Shown one piece after another: positions 1,048 to 14,629 of a stretch of DNA of 35,808 bases. Source of the stretch: Dehalococcoidia bacterium (GTDB lineage Bacteria; Chloroflexota; Dehalococcoidia; SZUA-161; SpSt-899). The DNA lies in the NCBI GenBank assembly GCA_028711995.1, contig JAQTRE010000018.1:1-35808 (forward strand), given 5' to 3'. Every line of letters starts with the position of its first letter. Within the stretch, counting starts at the first letter, position 1. Both the position numbers and the translations under genes were made by a program. The notes beneath the pieces are model-generated. The model did not search any database. It was not told where the DNA came from and saw only the letters and a program-made list of their open reading frames with translations.

Positions 1048-1794
1048 CTACGCACTCAGCTGATGCCGTATAGTCTGTAAATTCGGCAGCCCATCCGTTG
1101 AGCCAGGAGGTTTGGCTAGCCGGTATCCTATGCCCGGTTCGGAGACGATCAACCGGGGGTTGTCCGGCGAATCGCCCAGCTTGACTCGAAGACGACCGAC
1201 ATAGGCAGTCAGATAATCGTTTCCATCGGCATAATCTTTTCCCCACACAGTCTCTACCAGAACCTGGTTCGATACGATTTGGCCCACATTTCTAGCCAGG
1301 AAAAACAGGAGATTATGCTCTGTGGGAGTCAGTGGAACTTCTCTTCCCTTCACGCGTACTCGATTGGCAGCAAAATCGATGCACACCGTTCCCAAGTGAA
1401 GGGCCTGTTTGGTTTGATCCAACCCGCCCACATCGGAACGCCGCAGTACGGCTTTCACCCGGGCGATCAGCTCGGTGTGGCTGAAAGGCTTGGTGACATA
1501 GTCATCCGCTCCGGCATCGAGGCCCTCGATCTTGTCGATTTCCCTTCCTCTCGCTGTCAGCATCACAATGGGCACGTCCGAAAACAGGCGGATCTTGCGG
1601 CAAACCTCAATCCCGTCGAGGTCCGGTAAGCCGACATCGAGAATGACGATATCGGGGCATTCTGTCTCCGCCATGTCGATGCCCTTGCGACCCCGGCTGG
1701 CACAAGAAACCTGTGCACCCCCCCAGCGAAGTTGGAAGCACAGAGAAACGGCCTCGGCTATCTCCGGTTCATCTTCGATGATCAGTACTTTCAT
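1048..1794 (-). CDS. OmpR/PhoB-family response regulator
   Basis: A two-component transcription regulator of 248 residues. The N-terminal receiver domain (about 1-120) begins MKVLIIEDEPE, with acidic residues at 8-9, phospho-acceptor Asp53 (VILDVGLPD), Thr80 and Lys102 (TKPF). The C-terminal winged-helix DNA-binding domain (about 135-235) includes LTPTEHNLLFFLARN and YLTAYVGRLRVKLGD. I chose the ATG at 1794 because the family starts exactly there. A TTG at 1824 would add ten non-conserved residues, and a GGAG sits only about two bases from that TTG. It is the last gene of a minus-strand operon behind two histidine kinases, so one or both probably phosphorylate it. Target genes cannot be read from the window. 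KdpE is a close relative, but there is no kdp gene here, so no symbol is given. Confidence 0.92.
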   Translation of the reverse strand: MKVLIIEDEPEIAEAVSLCFQLRWGGAQVSCASRGRKGIDMAETECPDIVILDVGLPDLDGIEVCRKIRLFSDVPIVMLTARGREIDKIEGLDAGADDYVTKPFSHTELIARVKAVLRRSDVGGLDQTKQALHLGTVCIDFAANRVRVKGREVPLTPTEHNLLFFLARNVGQIVSNQVLVETVWGKDYADGNDYLTAYVGRLRVKLGDSPDNPRLIVSEPGIGYRLAKPPGSTDGLPNLQTIRHQLSA

Positions 1795-1850
1795 TCTCTG
1801 GTTACTTCCCGTTGGATTATCCAAGGCTCCCCTGGATTAATAGAACTTCG

Positions 1851-3410
1851 TTAACCTTTTATGCCGGTTTGGATCGACTCAGGCGCCGGCACAGCATGGC
1901 TCAGGGAGGCCTCAACATCCCGCACGAATTCCGCCCTCTCAGCAATAGGAATGGTGAAGCTGAAACGGGAACCGCGTCCCTCCTCACTCTCTACCCAAAT
2001 CTTACCCCCGTGCTGCTCGATAATCTTCTTCGCGATCGCCAGCCCCAGACCGACCCCTTTACTCCTTCGTTTCCTGGCGCTCTCCAACCGTTGGAATCGT
2101 TCAAACACAGAATGCAGGGCCTCCTTCGGGATGCCTATACCCTGATCGGCAACATCGACTTTGAGTTTTCCGTCAACCCGACCGGCCTCAAGGGTGATCC
2201 GGGTTCCTTTGTCAGAATAGGCCGCCGCGTTGGCGATCAAATTCGTAATCACCTGTCCGATGCGCACCTCGTCCGTGTTGACGGCAGGGAGATCTGACGG
2301 CACATTGATCTCAAAGCGATGTTCCCTGGTCAGCGTCTGAAGCTGATGATCGATCTGGCCCAGTATGGAGGACAGTCTACTTTGCTTGACGTCCAGTTTC
2401 ATGGTGCCTGCCTCCATCTGCGACATCTCAATGAGGTCATTGACGATATGGGTGAGCCTGTCGACAGACTGGCAGATCTCCTGCAGGAATTCCATCTGCG
2501 TCTCATCATCCCACTTAACGTCCGGTTGGATCAGGGTACTGGCCAGCCCTTTGATCGCGGTAAGAGGCGTTCGCAGTTCGTGTGAGACACTGGCGAGGAG
2601 AACTGTCTTGAGTCTATCCATCTCCTCCAGGACTTTCAGTCGAGCCCTCTCATTTTCCGCCCGCTTCTGATCGGTGATGTCCACCACGATAGCTCGAACT
2701 CCCCGGATCTGGCGGTCTCTTAGAAGCGGGCCGGGGTAAACCATAATGGGAAAGGATGTCTTATCTTTTCGGATCGCCACAAATTCAGTCGATCTGAGTT
2801 CTTGCCCCTCCAGGATCTGATGCATCTGTTGCATTACCCGGGTGTGGTCTTCATCGGCCACCAGATCAAGGACATTTACGCCTGCTTGCAGATTGATCTC
2901 CGCGTAGCCGAACATCTTCAAGCCAGCCGGGTTGATATAGGTGACGTTGCCCGATTCATTCATTTCGGTAAGACACTGAGGCAACAATTCGCACATCTGC
3001 CGGAATCGCCTCTCGCTCTCCACCAGTTGTTTTTGCATCTGGCCGCGGTAAATCCCCATCTCTATGGCGATGTTCAGATCTCTGTCCTGAAATGGTTTGA
3101 CCAAGTATCCCATGGGTGCGGTAATCTTCGCCCGCTGGACGGTTTGCTGATCGGCATAGGCCGTCAGGTAGATCACCGGAATATCCTGCCGGGCTCGAAT
3201 TGCCGCCGCGGTCTCTATGCCGTCCATGCCTCCATTGATGCGGATATCCATCAGAATCAGGTCGGGAGCCAGTTCCGCAGCCAGCCGGATGGCATCCTTG
3301 CCGTTATGGGCGACCGCCGGAACCACGTACCCGAGATCCCGTAGCCGCATCTGAATATCCTTGGACACAATCGCTTCGTCTTCAACAACCAGAACACAGA
3401 TGTCTCCCAT
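1851..3410 (-). CDS. Hybrid sensor: receiver - PAS - histidine kinase
   Basis: A 519-residue cytoplasmic signalling protein with no membrane segments. Domains in order: receiver (about 3-120; Asp55 in LILMDIR, Thr83, Lys105 in LVKPF), PAS (about 133-250, with [12 protein letters not shown]), HisKA (about 265-335; phospho-acceptor His277 in [10 protein letters not shown]) and HATPase_c (about 375-490; N box near N390-N394, G1 DQGIGIP at 422-428, G2 GVGLGLAI at 452-459). The receiver stands in front of the kinase, which suggests it accepts phosphate from the HisKA_2 kinase encoded just upstream and then controls its own kinase or passes phosphate to the OmpR regulator downstream. The start ATG has GAGAGGTG five bases upstream. 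It begins 13 bases after the upstream gene stops, so the genes are very likely cotranscribed. No cofactor-binding residue is obvious in the PAS domain. Confidence 0.93.
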
Positions 3411-3423
3411 AATTCACCTCTCA

Positions 3424-5538
3424 TCAAGATGGATCGCCCTGCGGAATGGTGATCCTGAATGTGGTTCCAAGGGTCCTGTCCACCTCGACCGACGCACTCA
3501 GTTGGGAGGAGAGACTGGTCACCAGTTGCAGCCCCAGCGTCTCGGTATTGTAGATATCCAGGCCCTCAGGTAATCCGATGCCATTGTCAGCCACCACTAA
3601 AGTCAGATGGTGATCGCTCGTCATGGCCACCCGAATATCGATTGCCGGAGCATATTTATTGGAAGGATCCCTTTGCCAACCCTCCGGGAAGGCATATTTC
3701 AGCGAGTTGGTGATCAGCTCGTTGACCATCAGCCCGCACGGCACCGCTGTGTCAATGCTCAAGAAGATGTTCTCCGCATGCAGATTCAGCGCAATCCCAC
3801 TCGAGCCATTGGCATACGTCCTGATGAGATTATCGGCCAGACTACGGAGGTACTGCTTGAAGTCGATCTTCGCCAAATCACCAGAGCGATACAACTGCTC
3901 GTGGATCAGCGCCATCGACTGAACCCGTCTCCCGCTTTCCTCGAACAGCAACCGAGCCTCCTGATCAGTGATGCTGCGTTTCTGCAGATTCAGCAGGCTG
4001 GCGATAATCTGAAGGTTGTTCTTCACCCGGTGATGGATTTCCTTCAGCAGAACCTCCCGCTCGGCAATTCTCTCCTCCAGCACTGCGTTCTTCTGGTGGA
4101 GATCCTGTTGGGAGCGTTTCAGCGCGTCAGTCATTGCGCTGAACGATCGGGATAACTGTCCGACTTCATCATTTGACGACGATTCCACCGGGTAATCCCA
4201 ATCCCCTTTCATGATCTGCTCCGCCCCCTTTCGCAGTCTGACAATGGGGACGGATATTGCCCTGGACAGAAAGACGGCCATTACATTGCATAACACCAGC
4301 AGGCCGAGCATCGCTATCAGAATCGTCCGAGTCAAATCCCCAACCGGTTTCACGATTTCGGCATGGTTCTTCTCCACCACCATCGTCCAGGGAGTCCCGG
4401 GTATCTGGTGATATACCCCGAGAACACTGTCGCCCATGTAGTTATGGGAGGAGACGACGGCATATTGCGTTTCATCGCCGATACCAGGCGACACAGATAC
4501 CTGCTGCTTGAGTACCGCATCCTGAAGAAATCGCGAAGGGGTAAGCATCAGCCCTTCTTCATCGATGAGGTACACCTCGCCGGTGTCTCCCAGGCCGCTT
4601 TTATCGCCGGTGATGAAGTTGAGTTCGTCTTGCCCGCCCAAATACACCATCACGCCTTTCAACTGGTTCCCCGCGAAAAACGGGGCCGACACTCCCAGCA
4701 CGAAAGTGTCGTTAGCCAAGGCTTCCGATTGGATATCAGGCCGGAGCAGTGAAAATCTGCCGATATAGGGCCCTTCCCTGCCTTTGAGATAAACGTCCTG
4801 ACGCCGCATATCAATAAAGTCCCATTCCATGTCGCTCAGATCAATACTGCGCCAGTTAAGGGTGTTCAGGTTAACCTTGCTGAGATCAATCTTGCTGAGA
4901 TCGAATTTGGTCCAATCCACATTGCTCAAGTCAACCTGGCTTAAGTCGACCCGGCTGATATCGACCTGGCTCCAGTCCAGTCGGGCGAAGTCAACCTGGC
5001 CCAGATCAAGGCGCGACCAATCGATCTGGCTATAATCCACTTTTGACCAATCGATCTCAGTTGGATCAACAGCCGACCAGTCGATCTGACTGTAGTCCAC
5101 CGCAGCCCAGTCTGATATGATCTGATTCGCGGGACTCTGGCCAGCCTGGTCCTCTGCGCGAACCGATGATGCCACCACATATCCCTCCGCAGCCACGTAC
5201 AATGCCTGCCAGACATAAGTGCTGGAGGCGGTGATACTTTGCACGATGGTGCGAATCGAACCGTCATCTGCGAAAGAGAAGGCCGTCTCGCGTTGCCCAG
5301 CCTCCAGTCCGGTATAGTACAGGGTTGCCTGATCGGCCAGCACCTGAACATTAGCCAGCTGGTAATCCACAAAATTCTGGACACTGCGGGCCCGCGATTG
5401 CGATATGGTTAACAGGTTGTCCTTTGCCTCACGCGTGAGAGCGTCACTGGCTATCTGCCTTCCGATGAAGGCAGCTGTGCTTCCTGAGAGCACTGCCGCT
5501 GTCAGAACCACAAGGAGAATCTTGTTGCTGATGCGCAT
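3424..5538 (-). CDS. Membrane HisKA_2 histidine kinase with pentapeptide-type repeats inside its extracytoplasmic sensor domain
   Basis: A 704-residue sensor kinase. TM1 is about 5-27; an extracytoplasmic Cache-like domain spans about 30-400; TM2 is about 403-425; HAMP about 425-478; a HisKA_2 dimerisation/phosphotransfer helix has the EIHHRVKNNLQII motif (phospho-acceptor probably His503); HATPase_c follows with N-box VNELITNSLKYAF (605-617) and DNGIGLP (651-657). Residues 147-246 are 20 unbroken pentads of the form [VIL]-D-[WYLF]-S-x; 142-146 (SDWAA) may be a 21st. They fall in a loop after the first Cache strands (GYVVASS, 119-125), and the Cache sequence resumes after them (GPYIGRF). The repeat resembles pentapeptide-repeat proteins but has many Trp/Tyr at the central position. 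It is the first gene of the signalling operon. Domain calls are firm; the ligand and the role of the repeat are unknown. Confidence 0.92.
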   Translation of the reverse strand: MRISNKILLVVLTAAVLSGSTAAFIGRQIASDALTREAKDNLLTISQSRARSVQNFVDYQLANVQVLADQATLYYTGLEAGQRETAFSFADDGSIRTIVQSITASSTYVWQALYVAAEGYVVASSVRAEDQAGQSPANQIISDWAAVDYSQIDWSAVDPTEIDWSKVDYSQIDWSRLDLGQVDFARLDWSQVDISRVDLSQVDLSNVDWTKFDLSKIDLSKVNLNTLNWRSIDLSDMEWDFIDMRRQDVYLKGREGPYIGRFSLLRPDIQSEALANDTFVLGVSAPFFAGNQLKGVMVYLGGQDELNFITGDKSGLGDTGEVYLIDEEGLMLTPSRFLQDAVLKQQVSVSPGIGDETQYAVVSSHNYMGDSVLGVYHQIPGTPWTMVVEKNHAEIVKPVGDLTRTILIAMLGLLVLCNVMAVFLSRAISVPIVRLRKGAEQIMKGDWDYPVESSSNDEVGQLSRSFSAMTDALKRSQQDLHQKNAVLEERIAEREVLLKEIHHRVKNNLQIIASLLNLQKRSITDQEARLLFEESGRRVQSMALIHEQLYRSGDLAKIDFKQYLRSLADNLIRTYANGSSGIALNLHAENIFLSIDTAVPCGLMVNELITNSLKYAFPEGWQRDPSNKYAPAIDIRVAMTSDHHLTLVVADNGIGLPEGLDIYNTETLGLQLVTSLSSQLSASVEVDRTLGTTFRITIPQGDPS
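4801..5115 (-). repeat. 15-bp-period coding repeat (20-21 pentapeptide units) within the sensor kinase gene
   Basis: Successive 15-base units encode units such as IDWSK, VDYSQ, IDWSR, VDLSQ, VDLSN and IDLSK. A looser 30-base period, alternating Trp and Tyr/Leu units, is visible in the first half. Units differ at synonymous and third positions, so the array is old and under protein-level selection rather than a fresh slippage product. Confidence 0.9.
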
Positions 5539-6009: not shown

Positions 6010-6897
6010 ATGCAGTTGGAAGGCAGTCAAACAGAGCGGAATCTACGAAACCTCCTGGCGGGTGAGCTTCAAGCCTATTTCAAATATACTCGGATGGCGC
6101 AGGTGGCCAAGGAGGCAGGACAACAACCGGTGGCCGATATATTTGCGGCCACAGCCCAAAACGAAATGGAGCATGCCATCCACTGTTTCAGACTTCAGGG
6201 TGGGCTGAAAGATATTCAGTCCAGTCTGAAAGCAGCAATACGGCAAGAACATGAGGAAGCCGTGAATATTTATCCCGAAGCGGCCAAAATTGCCGAAAAA
6301 GAGGGGTTTGCCAAGATTGCCGACTTTTTCCGGAAGATGGGGAAAACTGAAAACACTCATGAGGACCATTTTGCCCGGATTTTGGAAACCCTGGAGTCCG
6401 GTGGTCAAATAAAGGGCAGAACCGTGGGGCATTCCGCAACGTATATGGCCCAGATTATGCTGCCGAATCAGACCAATCCTGCCGGCAATGTCCACGGCGG
6501 CGAACTCATGAAGATGATGGACAATGCCGCCGGTGTGGCAGCTGCCCGTCACTGCAACAATCCGGTGGTAACGGCCAAGGTAGATGATCTTCAGTTCTTG
6601 GTCCCGGTGAAGGTTGGCGACGTAGTGATCCTCCATTCTCGACTCGTGTTTGCCAGCCGTTCCTCTATGACGGTCAGGGTAGAAGTGGAAGTGGAAAAAC
6701 TCTACACCGAAAAACGCATCCATGCCCTCACAGCCAGTTTTATCATGGTCGCTCTGAACAAAGATGGAGGCGCGATTGAAGTGCCGCCGCTGATTATCAG
6801 TACCGAGGAAGAGAGGATCCTATTTGAGGAAGCCAAGGCAGAATATGAGGCCAGAAGGGCAGGGGCTGTCCCAAAGAAAGAGGCGGCAAGGGGATGA
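6010..6897 (+). CDS. Rubrerythrin-like diiron domain fused to a hotdog acyl-CoA thioesterase
   Basis: A 295-residue protein in two parts. Residues 1-130 match rubrerythrin from its first residues (LEGSQTERNL) and keep diiron ligands Glu19 (AGELQAY), Glu52 and His55 (NEMEH), Glu83, and Glu114 and His117 (ENTH). The ligand equivalent to Glu97 of Desulfovibrio rubrerythrin appears to be Asn86. The usual C-terminal rubredoxin-type Cys4 domain is absent. In its place residues 135-260 form a YciA/BACH-type hotdog fold with the NPAGNVHGGELMKMMDNAAG signature (candidate catalytic Asn156 and Asp171), ending in a charged helix. The start ATG has AGAAGGGGGAA just upstream. Rubrerythrins reduce peroxide in anaerobes; YciA-type enzymes hydrolyse acyl-CoA. 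The joined function is unknown. The frame is continuous with no linker anomaly, so this is a real fusion rather than two genes. Confidence 0.9.
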   Translation: MQLEGSQTERNLRNLLAGELQAYFKYTRMAQVAKEAGQQPVADIFAATAQNEMEHAIHCFRLQGGLKDIQSSLKAAIRQEHEEAVNIYPEAAKIAEKEGFAKIADFFRKMGKTENTHEDHFARILETLESGGQIKGRTVGHSATYMAQIMLPNQTNPAGNVHGGELMKMMDNAAGVAAARHCNNPVVTAKVDDLQFLVPVKVGDVVILHSRLVFASRSSMTVRVEVEVEKLYTEKRIHALTASFIMVALNKDGGAIEVPPLIISTEEERILFEEAKAEYEARRAGAVPKKEAARG

Positions 6898-12187: not shown

Positions 12188-14629
12188 CTACGCTTTCGCC
12201 CTGGCCTTGACCTTCGCGCTCTCTTTCAGCCGCTCCTCAGCCAGCACCTTCTGGGTGTACACAATTTCCTCCGGCTTGACCTTCTGGCGCATCTCCTCGA
12301 TCTCGTTCATCACCCGGGCGAACTTCTGGCCCTCGGCGGCACTGATCCATTCCAGTTGCAGCCGCTCCGGTCGAATGCCCAGCTTCTCCAACTTATCCCA
12401 GAGCCGGTCCATCCGGCGCACGGTCCAAGTGTTCGCATTGATGTAGTGACAGTCTGCCAGATGGCAGCCGGAAACTAACACCATCGCCGCGCCAAGTTCA
12501 AAAGCGCGCAGGATGAATTTCTCGGAGACACGCCCGCTGCACATGGTTCGAATGATGCGGGCGTTGGAAGGATACTGCAATCGAGAAGTCCCTGCGTTGT
12601 CTCCTCCCGCATAGGAGCACCAGTTGCAGGCAAAAACAACCACCCTTTCCCCGGCATTCCCCTCAACAGATGACTCCGTCTGAGCCATGATCGCCTCATC
12701 ACTGAAGTGTCGGATGCTGATGGCATCAAAGCGGCATTCGGCAGCACATGTACCGCAACCGGCACACATGGCCTCGATCACCTCGGCAGGGGTCTTCTTT
12801 TCCTTATCGAACTTGATTGCCCCATAAGGACACACGCGAGCGCAAACACCGCAAGCAGTGCACTTCTCCTTATCCACCGAAGCGGTAATGGCCTCTACCG
12901 TAAGATCATCCGAATTCAGGATGATGGAAGCCCTCGCGGTTGCCGCGCTGGCCTGGGTTACGCTGTCCTTGATATCCTTGGGCGATTCCACGCACCCCGC
13001 CAGGAAAATACCCGGCGTCGAAGCGTCCACAGGCTTCAGCTTGGGATGCGCCTCCAGCAGGAAACCATCGCTGGTCTTGGAGAGATTCAACAGCTGCCGG
13101 AGCTGATTGCCGTCCTTGCGCGGTTCCAGCCCCACGGCCAGAACCAGCATATCCAGTTCGTATTTCTCCAGCCTTCCGGCAGTGGTATTATCCACGCTCA
13201 CCGTCAGATTTCCGGACTCCGGATTTTCCGTCACGCTGCCAGGCAAGCCCCGGATATACCGAACGCCCAGCGCCCGGCTTCGCTTCAGGAGATCTTCAAA
13301 TCCCTTGCCGAAAGCCCGCAGATCGATATAGAACACGAAGACCTCGCTGTCCGGGTAGTGTTCCTTCAAAAGGAGGCTGTTCTTGATGGTGGCCATGCAA
13401 CAGATATTGCTGCAATAGGGATTCCCTCGATTCTCCATACGAGAGCCGACGCACTGCACAAATCCGATGCGCTTGGGCACCTTGAAATCGCCGGGACGTA
13501 TCAAATGGCCCTCGGTAGGTCCGGCCGCATTGATCAGCCGCTCGAACTCAAGGCTGGTAACCACATTCTCGAAGCGCGTATAGCCGTACTCATCCATCTC
13601 CGTCGGGTCATACACATCCATTCCGGTAGCCACAATGATGGTGCCGACATCAAATTGGATGATCTCATCCTGCATATCGAAATCGATGCAGCGCTTCTGG
13701 CACTTCTCCATGCACTTGCCGCAGGCAATGGGGTTGCGGCCGAGGCAGTTGGCCGGATTGATCACATAGGCTGAAGGAACCGCTTGAGGAAACGGTTTGT
13801 AGATGGCCTTGCGAGTGCCCAGCCCAACCTGATATTCATCCGGGCTGGTTACCGGACAGACGACGGCGCAATCGCCACAAGAGGTGCAGGCCGTCTCGTC
13901 CACAAAACGGGCTTTCTGGCGCACTTTCACATGGAAATTGCCGATGTAACCCGTGACCTGTTCGACCTCACTCAAGGTCAGTAGCTTTATCCTTGGATGT
14001 CGACCGACATCCATCATTTTCGGTCCGAGTATTCAGATGGAGCAATCCATGGTGGGGAAGGTCTTATCCAGTTGCGCCATGATCCCACCGATGGAAGGTT
14101 CTTTCTCCACTAAATAGACCTGATGGCCGGTATTGGCCAAATCCAGCGCCGCTTGAATACCGGCGATTCCGCCGCCGATGACCAGAGCCGCATCGGTGAC
14201 CGGCACCCTGCTCTCAACTTGAGGTTTCAAGAAATGCGCCTTGGCGACGGCCATTCTGACGGTGTCTTTGGCTTTCTGGGTGGCAGCTTCTCGATCCGAG
14301 GAATGCACCCAGCTCACGTGCTCCCGGATGTTGGCCACTTCGAGCAGATAGGGATTCAATCCCGCATCGGCGACGCAGGCCCGAAAGGTCGGCTCGTGAA
14401 GGCGGGGCGAACAGGTGGCCACTACCACGCGATTCAAATTGTGTTCGCGAATGTTCTTTTTAATTGCTTCTTGACCGGGATCCGCGCATGTATACGAACT
14501 GCCAGCCGCTACTGCCACATCCGGCAAGCCCTCGGCATATTGCCTCACCGCCTCCGTATCCACAAAGCCGGCGATATTGGATCCGCAATCGCAAACGAAA
14601 ACCCCGATCCTCAGATCATCTTCACTCAT
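12188..14629 (-). CDS. hdrA: HdrA-type electron-bifurcation flavoprotein with C-terminal MvhD domain; probable selenoprotein (TGA at 14033-14035 read as Sec)
   Basis: One 813-residue gene read through a single in-frame TGA (codon 199). Before it: [18 protein letters not shown], an FAD-binding [14 protein letters not shown] and FPTMDCSI. After it: [19 protein letters not shown], which continues the HdrA family without a gap. The TGA takes the place of the second Cys of CxxC, giving Cys196-Ser-Ile-Sec199. Downstream are a ferredoxin motif (Cys248, 251, 254, 258), more cluster Cys (295-310), the NAD(P)/FAD-like fold, two [4Fe-4S] motifs (590-600, 622-632) and an MvhD domain (about 660-780: [21 protein letters not shown]). 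HdrA bifurcates electrons between ferredoxin and a disulfide-type acceptor via FAD. Its ATG overlaps the hdrCB stop by 4 bases. A hairpin fitting a SECIS element follows the TGA. The alternative is a nonsense mutation, but both halves are otherwise intact. Confidence 0.88.
13994..14013 (-). promoter_or_regulatory. Candidate bacterial SECIS element in hdrA mRNA
   Basis: On the minus strand GGATGTC-GGTC-GACATCC forms a perfect 7-bp stem, extended to 8 bp by a U-A pair, with a GGUC loop. The loop starts 27 bases after the TGA, inside the 16-37 range expected for SelB-binding elements, and the GGU in the loop is the expected feature. It lies inside codons for [10 protein letters not shown], so coding constraint also acts on it. 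Confidence 0.78.
14033..14035 (-). other. In-frame TGA, probable selenocysteine codon (hdrA residue 199)
   Basis: The only stop codon between the two halves of hdrA, preceded by codons for DCSI and followed by codons for ILGPK. Family members normally carry Cys here (DCSxCIL...PKM). Ordinary translation would give a 198-residue N-terminal fragment and an orphan 609-residue protein starting at 14017. Confidence 0.85.

Follow-up and report, generated by a model that had tools for sequence, protein, structure and literature searches.

A pentapeptide-type repeat array inserted in the extracytoplasmic dCache_1 sensor of a Dehalococcoidia histidine kinase

The minus strand at positions 3424-5538 of the window (the whole analysed stretch, 35,808 nucleotides from a Dehalococcoidia bacterium) encodes a sensor histidine kinase of 704 amino acids, in which an array of 21 pentads (residues 142 to 246; positions 4801-5115, minus strand) is inserted in the dCache_1 domain. 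The reading that we favour, with a probability of roughly 0.6, is that this array forms an extracytoplasmic pentapeptide beta-helix, carried by the membrane-distal Cache module and serving as a contact or ligand arm that feeds a phosphorelay. If this rod is a sensing surface, it would provide kinases with a new means of detecting signals that are large or bound to a surface.

The domain order detected with the Pfam profiles is TM, dCache_1 (split by the array), TM, HAMP, HisKA_2 and HATPase_c, all coordinates referring to the minus strand. A first hydrophobic, transmembrane segment (residues ~6-26; positions 5461-5523; Kyte-Doolittle maximum of 2.28) precedes the dCache_1 domain, which is matched with 48.9 bits (cut-off 45) in two stretches flanking the array. 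The N-terminal piece (residues 33-141; 5116-5442) corresponds to the long helix and the first hairpin of the membrane-distal module. The C-terminal piece contains the residues 247-389 (4372-4800); the profile resumes at position 93 past the array, and residues 242-389 are aligned with profile positions 93-240. This match covers both Cache modules and is flanked by two transmembrane segments, the second hydrophobic segment being localized at residues ~401-423, just before the HAMP domain (residues 423-474; 4117-4272; 47.2 bits). The kinase core that follows HAMP, predicted to be on the cytoplasmic side, is composed of HisKA_2, the phosphoacceptor domain (residues 500-575; 3814-4041; 105.9 bits, E-value 1.2e-30), where the H-box IHHRVKNNLQII is present, and of HATPase_c (residues 603-700; 3439-3732; 39.9 bits, E-value 6.5e-10), which contains the N-box NELITNSLKYAF and the motif DNGIGL. 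In kinases of the Cache-HAMP type, the Cache sensor is located outside the membrane. Because the dCache_1 domain and the array lie between the hydrophobic segments 6-26 and ~401-423, both are placed outside the membrane. The split dCache_1 domain between two hydrophobic segments agrees with the initial annotation, which had described an insert in an extracytoplasmic Cache-like domain. The same location makes its proposal of a DNA-mimicking module unlikely.

The pentads follow each other without interruption: residues 147-246 constitute 20 unbroken units fitting [VILMF]-[DNE]-[WYLFIMP]-x-x, whereas the longest run was three when either the full protein or the segment alone was shuffled (5,000 times each). 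Over the 21 units, the first position is occupied by V (9), I (6), L (3), F, M and S (one each), the second by D (18), N (2) and E (1), and the third by W (8), L (7), Y (2), P, F, I and M (one each); the fourth position is a serine in 12 units, and the net charge of the array is -12. The profile Pentapeptide (PF00805) recognizes the kinase with 23.9 bits, above the Pfam cut-off of 20.2. The uninterrupted pentapeptide-type array described initially is thus borne out by the register, the shuffles and the profile score. Its strict formulation, [VIL]-D-[WYLF]-S-x, holds only in part: the five-residue register never slips, but the pattern is broken by the units VDPTE, LDLGQ, VDFAR, VDISR, VDWTK, FDLSK, VNLNT, LNWRS, MEWDF and IDMRR. 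As in the pentapeptide repeat proteins of PF00805 (Alr5209, 6OMX; MfpA; Qnr; HglK), the array displays an aspartate at i-1, a hydrophobic residue at i and a serine at i+1, and it is likewise uninterrupted, with 20 to 21 contiguous repeats where eight are asked for. It differs from the A-D/N-L of these proteins by V, I or L at i-2 in 18 of the 21 units and by W at i in eight, and it is nested in a Cache sensor while these proteins are mostly free-standing. The pentapeptide consensus revised in 2019, (A/C/S/V/T/L/I)(D/N/...)(L/F, also I/M/W)(S/T/R...)(x), admits I, M and W at i and V, L and I at i-2 (PMC7337050). The units of the array are within this consensus, with the exception of VDPTE and of the two Y-centred units.

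The insertion is clean. When 20 pentads were cut in silico and the last one kept, the two separate dCache_1 stretches (48.9 bits) became a single match of 68.7 bits (profile positions 2-240). Three further dCache kinases with an array were detected in the same genome (G000; 3.3 Mb, 240 contigs), and the dCache_1 profile is taken up again at position 92-94 in each of the four array kinases, so that position 93 coincides with the start of the last pentad. The insertion site is a loop of the membrane-distal module just before its distal helix, and in other dCache domains the helix that follows this loop lines the ligand pocket. The array kinase shares with dCache_1 kinases in general (PF02743) the N-terminal TM helix, the order dCache_1, TM, HAMP and kinase, and the position of the motif x-D-[LMF]-S before the distal helix, and is distinguished from them by 105 residues of pentads at profile position ~92/93.

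The three paralogues, designated by their contigs, differ by their arrays. C141 contains 21 pentads and a HisKA_2 domain; C48 contains 17 pentads and a HisKA domain, its PF00805 score (15.5 bits) being under the cut-off of 20.2; C40, which has several PAS domains, contains about seven regular pentads followed by a degenerate stretch. The copies with 21, 21 and 17 units are ~45-50% identical and their pentad register is intact. The similarity between pentads of the window protein peaks at a lag of four units (p = 0.0002 from shuffles of the pentad order; 0.004 over lags 1 to 8), as it does in C141 (p = 0.003; 0.013 after lag correction), and both show a second signal at lag 2. In the C48 array lag 2 is the sole signal, with none at lag 4. 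When this array was slid ungapped along the two 21-pentad arrays, an offset of four pentads was the best (scores of 246 and 273) and offsets of one and three were the worst; MAFFT similarly placed a single gap of 20 residues ahead of it. The first four pentads of the window kinase (residues 142-161; 5056-5115, minus strand) would therefore represent an extra coil absent from C48. The difference between 21 and 17 units equals exactly one coil, in line with a variation in steps of four which the initial annotation had proposed to look for, and such a difference alone has one chance in four of occurring. Taken together with the lag 4 signal, it fits, at the level of the sequences, a coil of four pentads.

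The fold was also approached by comparison and modelling. By sequence, the array alone matches in the PDB the entries 4yfo (E-value 8e-13), 3du1 (4e-6) and 6omx (8e-5), quadrilateral beta-helix proteins of designed or natural origin, the best match belonging to the designed beta1 family. AlphaFold2 models from a single sequence had a mean pLDDT of 39.8 for the sensor and of 61.8 for the array alone (block means up to ~72), and Foldseek found no beta-helix match for these low-confidence models in the PDB and BFVD; their outcome weighs neither for nor against a beta-helix. The five-turn beta-helix initially proposed is consistent with the lag of four and the four-pentad step, and is absent from the AlphaFold2 models and the Foldseek results. 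Both models show a three-residue helical turn per pentad and no recognized strands. Nearly every pentad has bulky residues at both inward positions, and the inward volume per pentad is ~343 cubic angstroms, compared with 255 for A-D-L-x-x; a coil would therefore need extra width, and a wider or otherwise altered coil is possible in view of this composition. The helical turns, the inward volume (one third above that of A-D-L-x-x) and the lack of a Foldseek match to known pentapeptide proteins could also suggest another repetitive fold, in which each pentad would make a short helical turn and the shape would be wider than, or different from, the quadrilateral helix. We consider it quite unlikely, since the recurrent helical turn comes from low-confidence models of one sequence, V, I or L at i-2 and W at i are within the revised consensus (PMC7337050), and four pentads per turn are suggested by the lag and the length step. 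The variant fold that the first reading had deduced from the central tryptophans and the Val/Ile residues is weakened likewise, the consensus admitting both, and retains in its favour the unusual bulk at both inward positions.

A tree built after removal of the arrays groups the four array kinases in one clade (support values 100/99). Two array-free dCache kinases of the family are closest to this clade (99/97 for the resulting group of six), and array-free kinases of the class branch next. Within the clade, C40 diverges first, followed by C48 and then by the window kinase with C141, and the difference between 17 and 21 pentads maps to one branch. From this clade and its array-free neighbours, a single origin of the array, after the split from the array-free kinases and before the duplications, is the simplest scenario; as for its direction, the tree is compatible with either gain or loss. 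The nearest array-free relative, a dCache-HAMP-PAS kinase (L022/L014, genome G006), has the N-terminus and the dCache_1 domain in common with the array kinase, but possesses a single native GLDFSD motif and no array. Its dCache_1 match (L022) is continuous, with 55.8 bits.

The last pentad of the window array, IDMRR (residues 242-246; 4801-4815, minus strand; dCache_1 position 93 onward), falls on the native motif x-D-[LMF]-S that precedes the Y/F helix in the array-free relatives. In these relatives, a single G-x-D-[MFK]-[SA] unit is found where the array ends: GLDFSDWEVF in L022, GLDKSEDSLF in L029, GKDKSDDLYF in L034, GVDMAQTDFYIKG in L065 and GMDMALTDFFREG in L049; the last pentad of C48 and the residues that follow it are SDLSQTDVYIKG. 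The aspartate is conserved in all nine sequences aligned, whether or not they carry an array. Because the unit occupies the same site in array-free relatives and its aspartate is invariant, the last pentad corresponds to the Cache motif itself, whose repetition could have produced the array. We tentatively propose, as a scenario somewhat short of even odds, that the beta-helix, instead of being acquired as a ready-made domain, grew in place in an ancestral kinase from one native x-D-[LMF]-S-x motif, now the last unit of the array, and that whole coils were added later, during duplication. Growth in place fits the result of the profile search, in which no other pentapeptide protein exceeded the PF00805 cut-off in G000. 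It is also possible that the likeness of D-L-S in the Cache loop to the pentapeptide consensus is due to chance. If the array did grow in place, it would offer a case in which the emergence of a solenoid domain within a sensor can be traced, and the series of one native motif, ~7 regular, 17 and 21 units would allow the origin of a repeat domain to be reconstructed.

The DNA of the array has a tandem periodicity of 15 and 30 bases. This periodicity, the degenerate copy C40 and the confinement of the arrays to one genome of the set searched would be expected if tandem repeats had expanded neutrally in a tolerant loop to give a poorly structured segment. Such neutral growth is highly improbable: the register is kept over 21, 21 and 17 units in paralogues that are only ~45-50% identical, and two positions out of five bear hydrophobic residues of the buried type, unlike disordered linkers. 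DNA identity among pentads is only ~50% and the amino-acid pattern holds; the intact register combined with this low identity therefore indicates selection. The degeneration of the C40 array, a point against the favoured reading, suggests that regularity is dispensable in some copies.

Around the array, the paralogues retain a complete and conserved dCache_1 domain. Two of the paralogues have whole arrays that are 50% identical and pentads 2-7 that are strongly conserved; in the first eight pentads of the two longest arrays, the central residues are identical and the exposed positions are more variable. An intact Cache domain, arrays of differing length, and a constant core under a more variable surface would also suit a rod that acts as a spacer, setting the spacing or crowding of sensors at the cell surface while sensing stays in the Cache pockets. 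This role seems unlikely, as a rod on the distal loop, beside the pocket helix, leaves the distance between pocket and membrane unraised, and the conservation of pentads 2-7 in arrays that are 50% identical exceeds the needs of a spacer. In the favoured reading, the beta-helix would be a rigid arm that makes contacts or binds a ligand. A partner, a surface polymer or a metal ion bound to the rod would shift the distal Cache module, and this shift would reach the HisKA_2 core by way of the proximal Cache module, TM2 and HAMP. Metal binding by the Asp-rich faces is no more than a reasonable guess from the net charge.

Two genes on the same strand could provide the following steps. A receiver-PAS-HisKA-HATPase protein, the likely phosphorelay partner, is encoded 13 nt downstream of the array kinase (1851-3410, minus strand), and an OmpR-type response regulator (receiver and Trans_reg_C), the likely output, 26 nt further downstream (1048-1824, minus strand; both from Pfam). 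From this gene order, we infer a phosphorelay: phosphate would pass from the HisKA_2 core to the receiver domain of the neighbouring receiver-PAS-kinase, and the OmpR-type regulator would be under the control of the latter protein. C141 also has a receiver-PAS-kinase gene directly downstream, and C48 is followed by a single receiver gene and then by a receiver-PAS-kinase gene. The C141 array kinase is adjoined by a second HisKA_2 kinase (L142:6232-7476, minus strand), in which PAS domains but no Cache sensor were seen; its core is 58% similar to that of the window kinase, and the C141 core is equally similar.

Other array kinases were sought in 8 genomes of the family, 18 of the order, 393 of the class and 400 sampled genomes of the phylum, and none combined an array with this sensor. 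In the larger searches at most four candidates of each genome were scored, and among the candidates scored in ~740 sampled genomes of the phylum no further array kinase was found. A DNA pattern (I/V-D-W, I/V-D, I/V-D-W at five-residue spacing) applied to 383 genomes of the class and 400 of the phylum recovered pentad arrays only in G000, on the contigs C18 and C141. These negatives are weak alone, since the pattern was strict enough to overlook two arrays of G000 itself, those of C48 and C40. A search for Cache domains with inserted pentads, which the initial annotation had suggested, thus yielded the four kinases of G000 and none in the relatives searched. The two remaining matches of the phylum (L149 and L150) correspond to a short frame and to a probable shadow frame, respectively. 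L071 (G500) corresponds to a simple repeat located antisense to a protease gene, and L028, L036, L042 and L085 to ordinary pentapeptide proteins that lack a Cache domain. Two scans of viral sequences detected no relatives of the array kinase. The 54 viral matches to the IDW-pentad DNA pattern belong mostly to a single family of phage proteins, which has three IDWD units and no arrays, the remaining ones being short or shadow frames. The plasmid matches listed are confined to the later portion of the kinase and leave the array uncovered.

Several other repeats were encountered. L071 and L085 (G705) contain simple 15-base repeats in which another strand or frame reads as the pentads SQVTL and AQISL, a source of false pentapeptide matches. 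Most viral IDW-pattern matches (loci L088-L141) come from a recurrent protein of ~700-800 amino acids with a short TIDWDSIDWDNVDWD stretch. In L050 (G028, same class), a minus-strand frame encodes domains of the secreted type and terminal tandem FDMT[LT] pentads, a different aromatic pentad array which runs off the contig end.

Cache domains have been described as the largest superfamily of extracellular sensors in prokaryotes, and the same survey mentions large insertions without specifying their kind (PMC4822843). In the literature searched, no paper combined pentapeptide repeats with Cache domains in kinases and solenoid inserts in Cache domains were undescribed, in agreement with the initial remark that no kinase with such an insert was known. 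Extracytoplasmic pentapeptide helices are represented by the luminal domain of SV2, which is part of a membrane protein (PMC8145042), and by YjbI, a secreted protein that acts on two-component systems of the envelope and has a cyanobacterial relative with calcium bound along one of its faces (PMC12864828). The SV2C luminal domain and YjbI would resemble the array, if it forms the predicted beta-helix, in their location outside the cytoplasm and, unlike it, neither is part of a kinase.

Two further genes of the window deserve mention. The frame at 6010-6897 (plus strand, 295 amino acids) combines a rubrerythrin/ferritin-like domain (residues 11-124) with a 4HBT hotdog thioesterase domain (residues 159-230), a seemingly unusual fusion. 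The gene at 12188-14017 (minus strand) encodes an HdrA-like iron-sulphur protein with a C-terminal FlpD domain (methyl-viologen-reducing hydrogenase delta).
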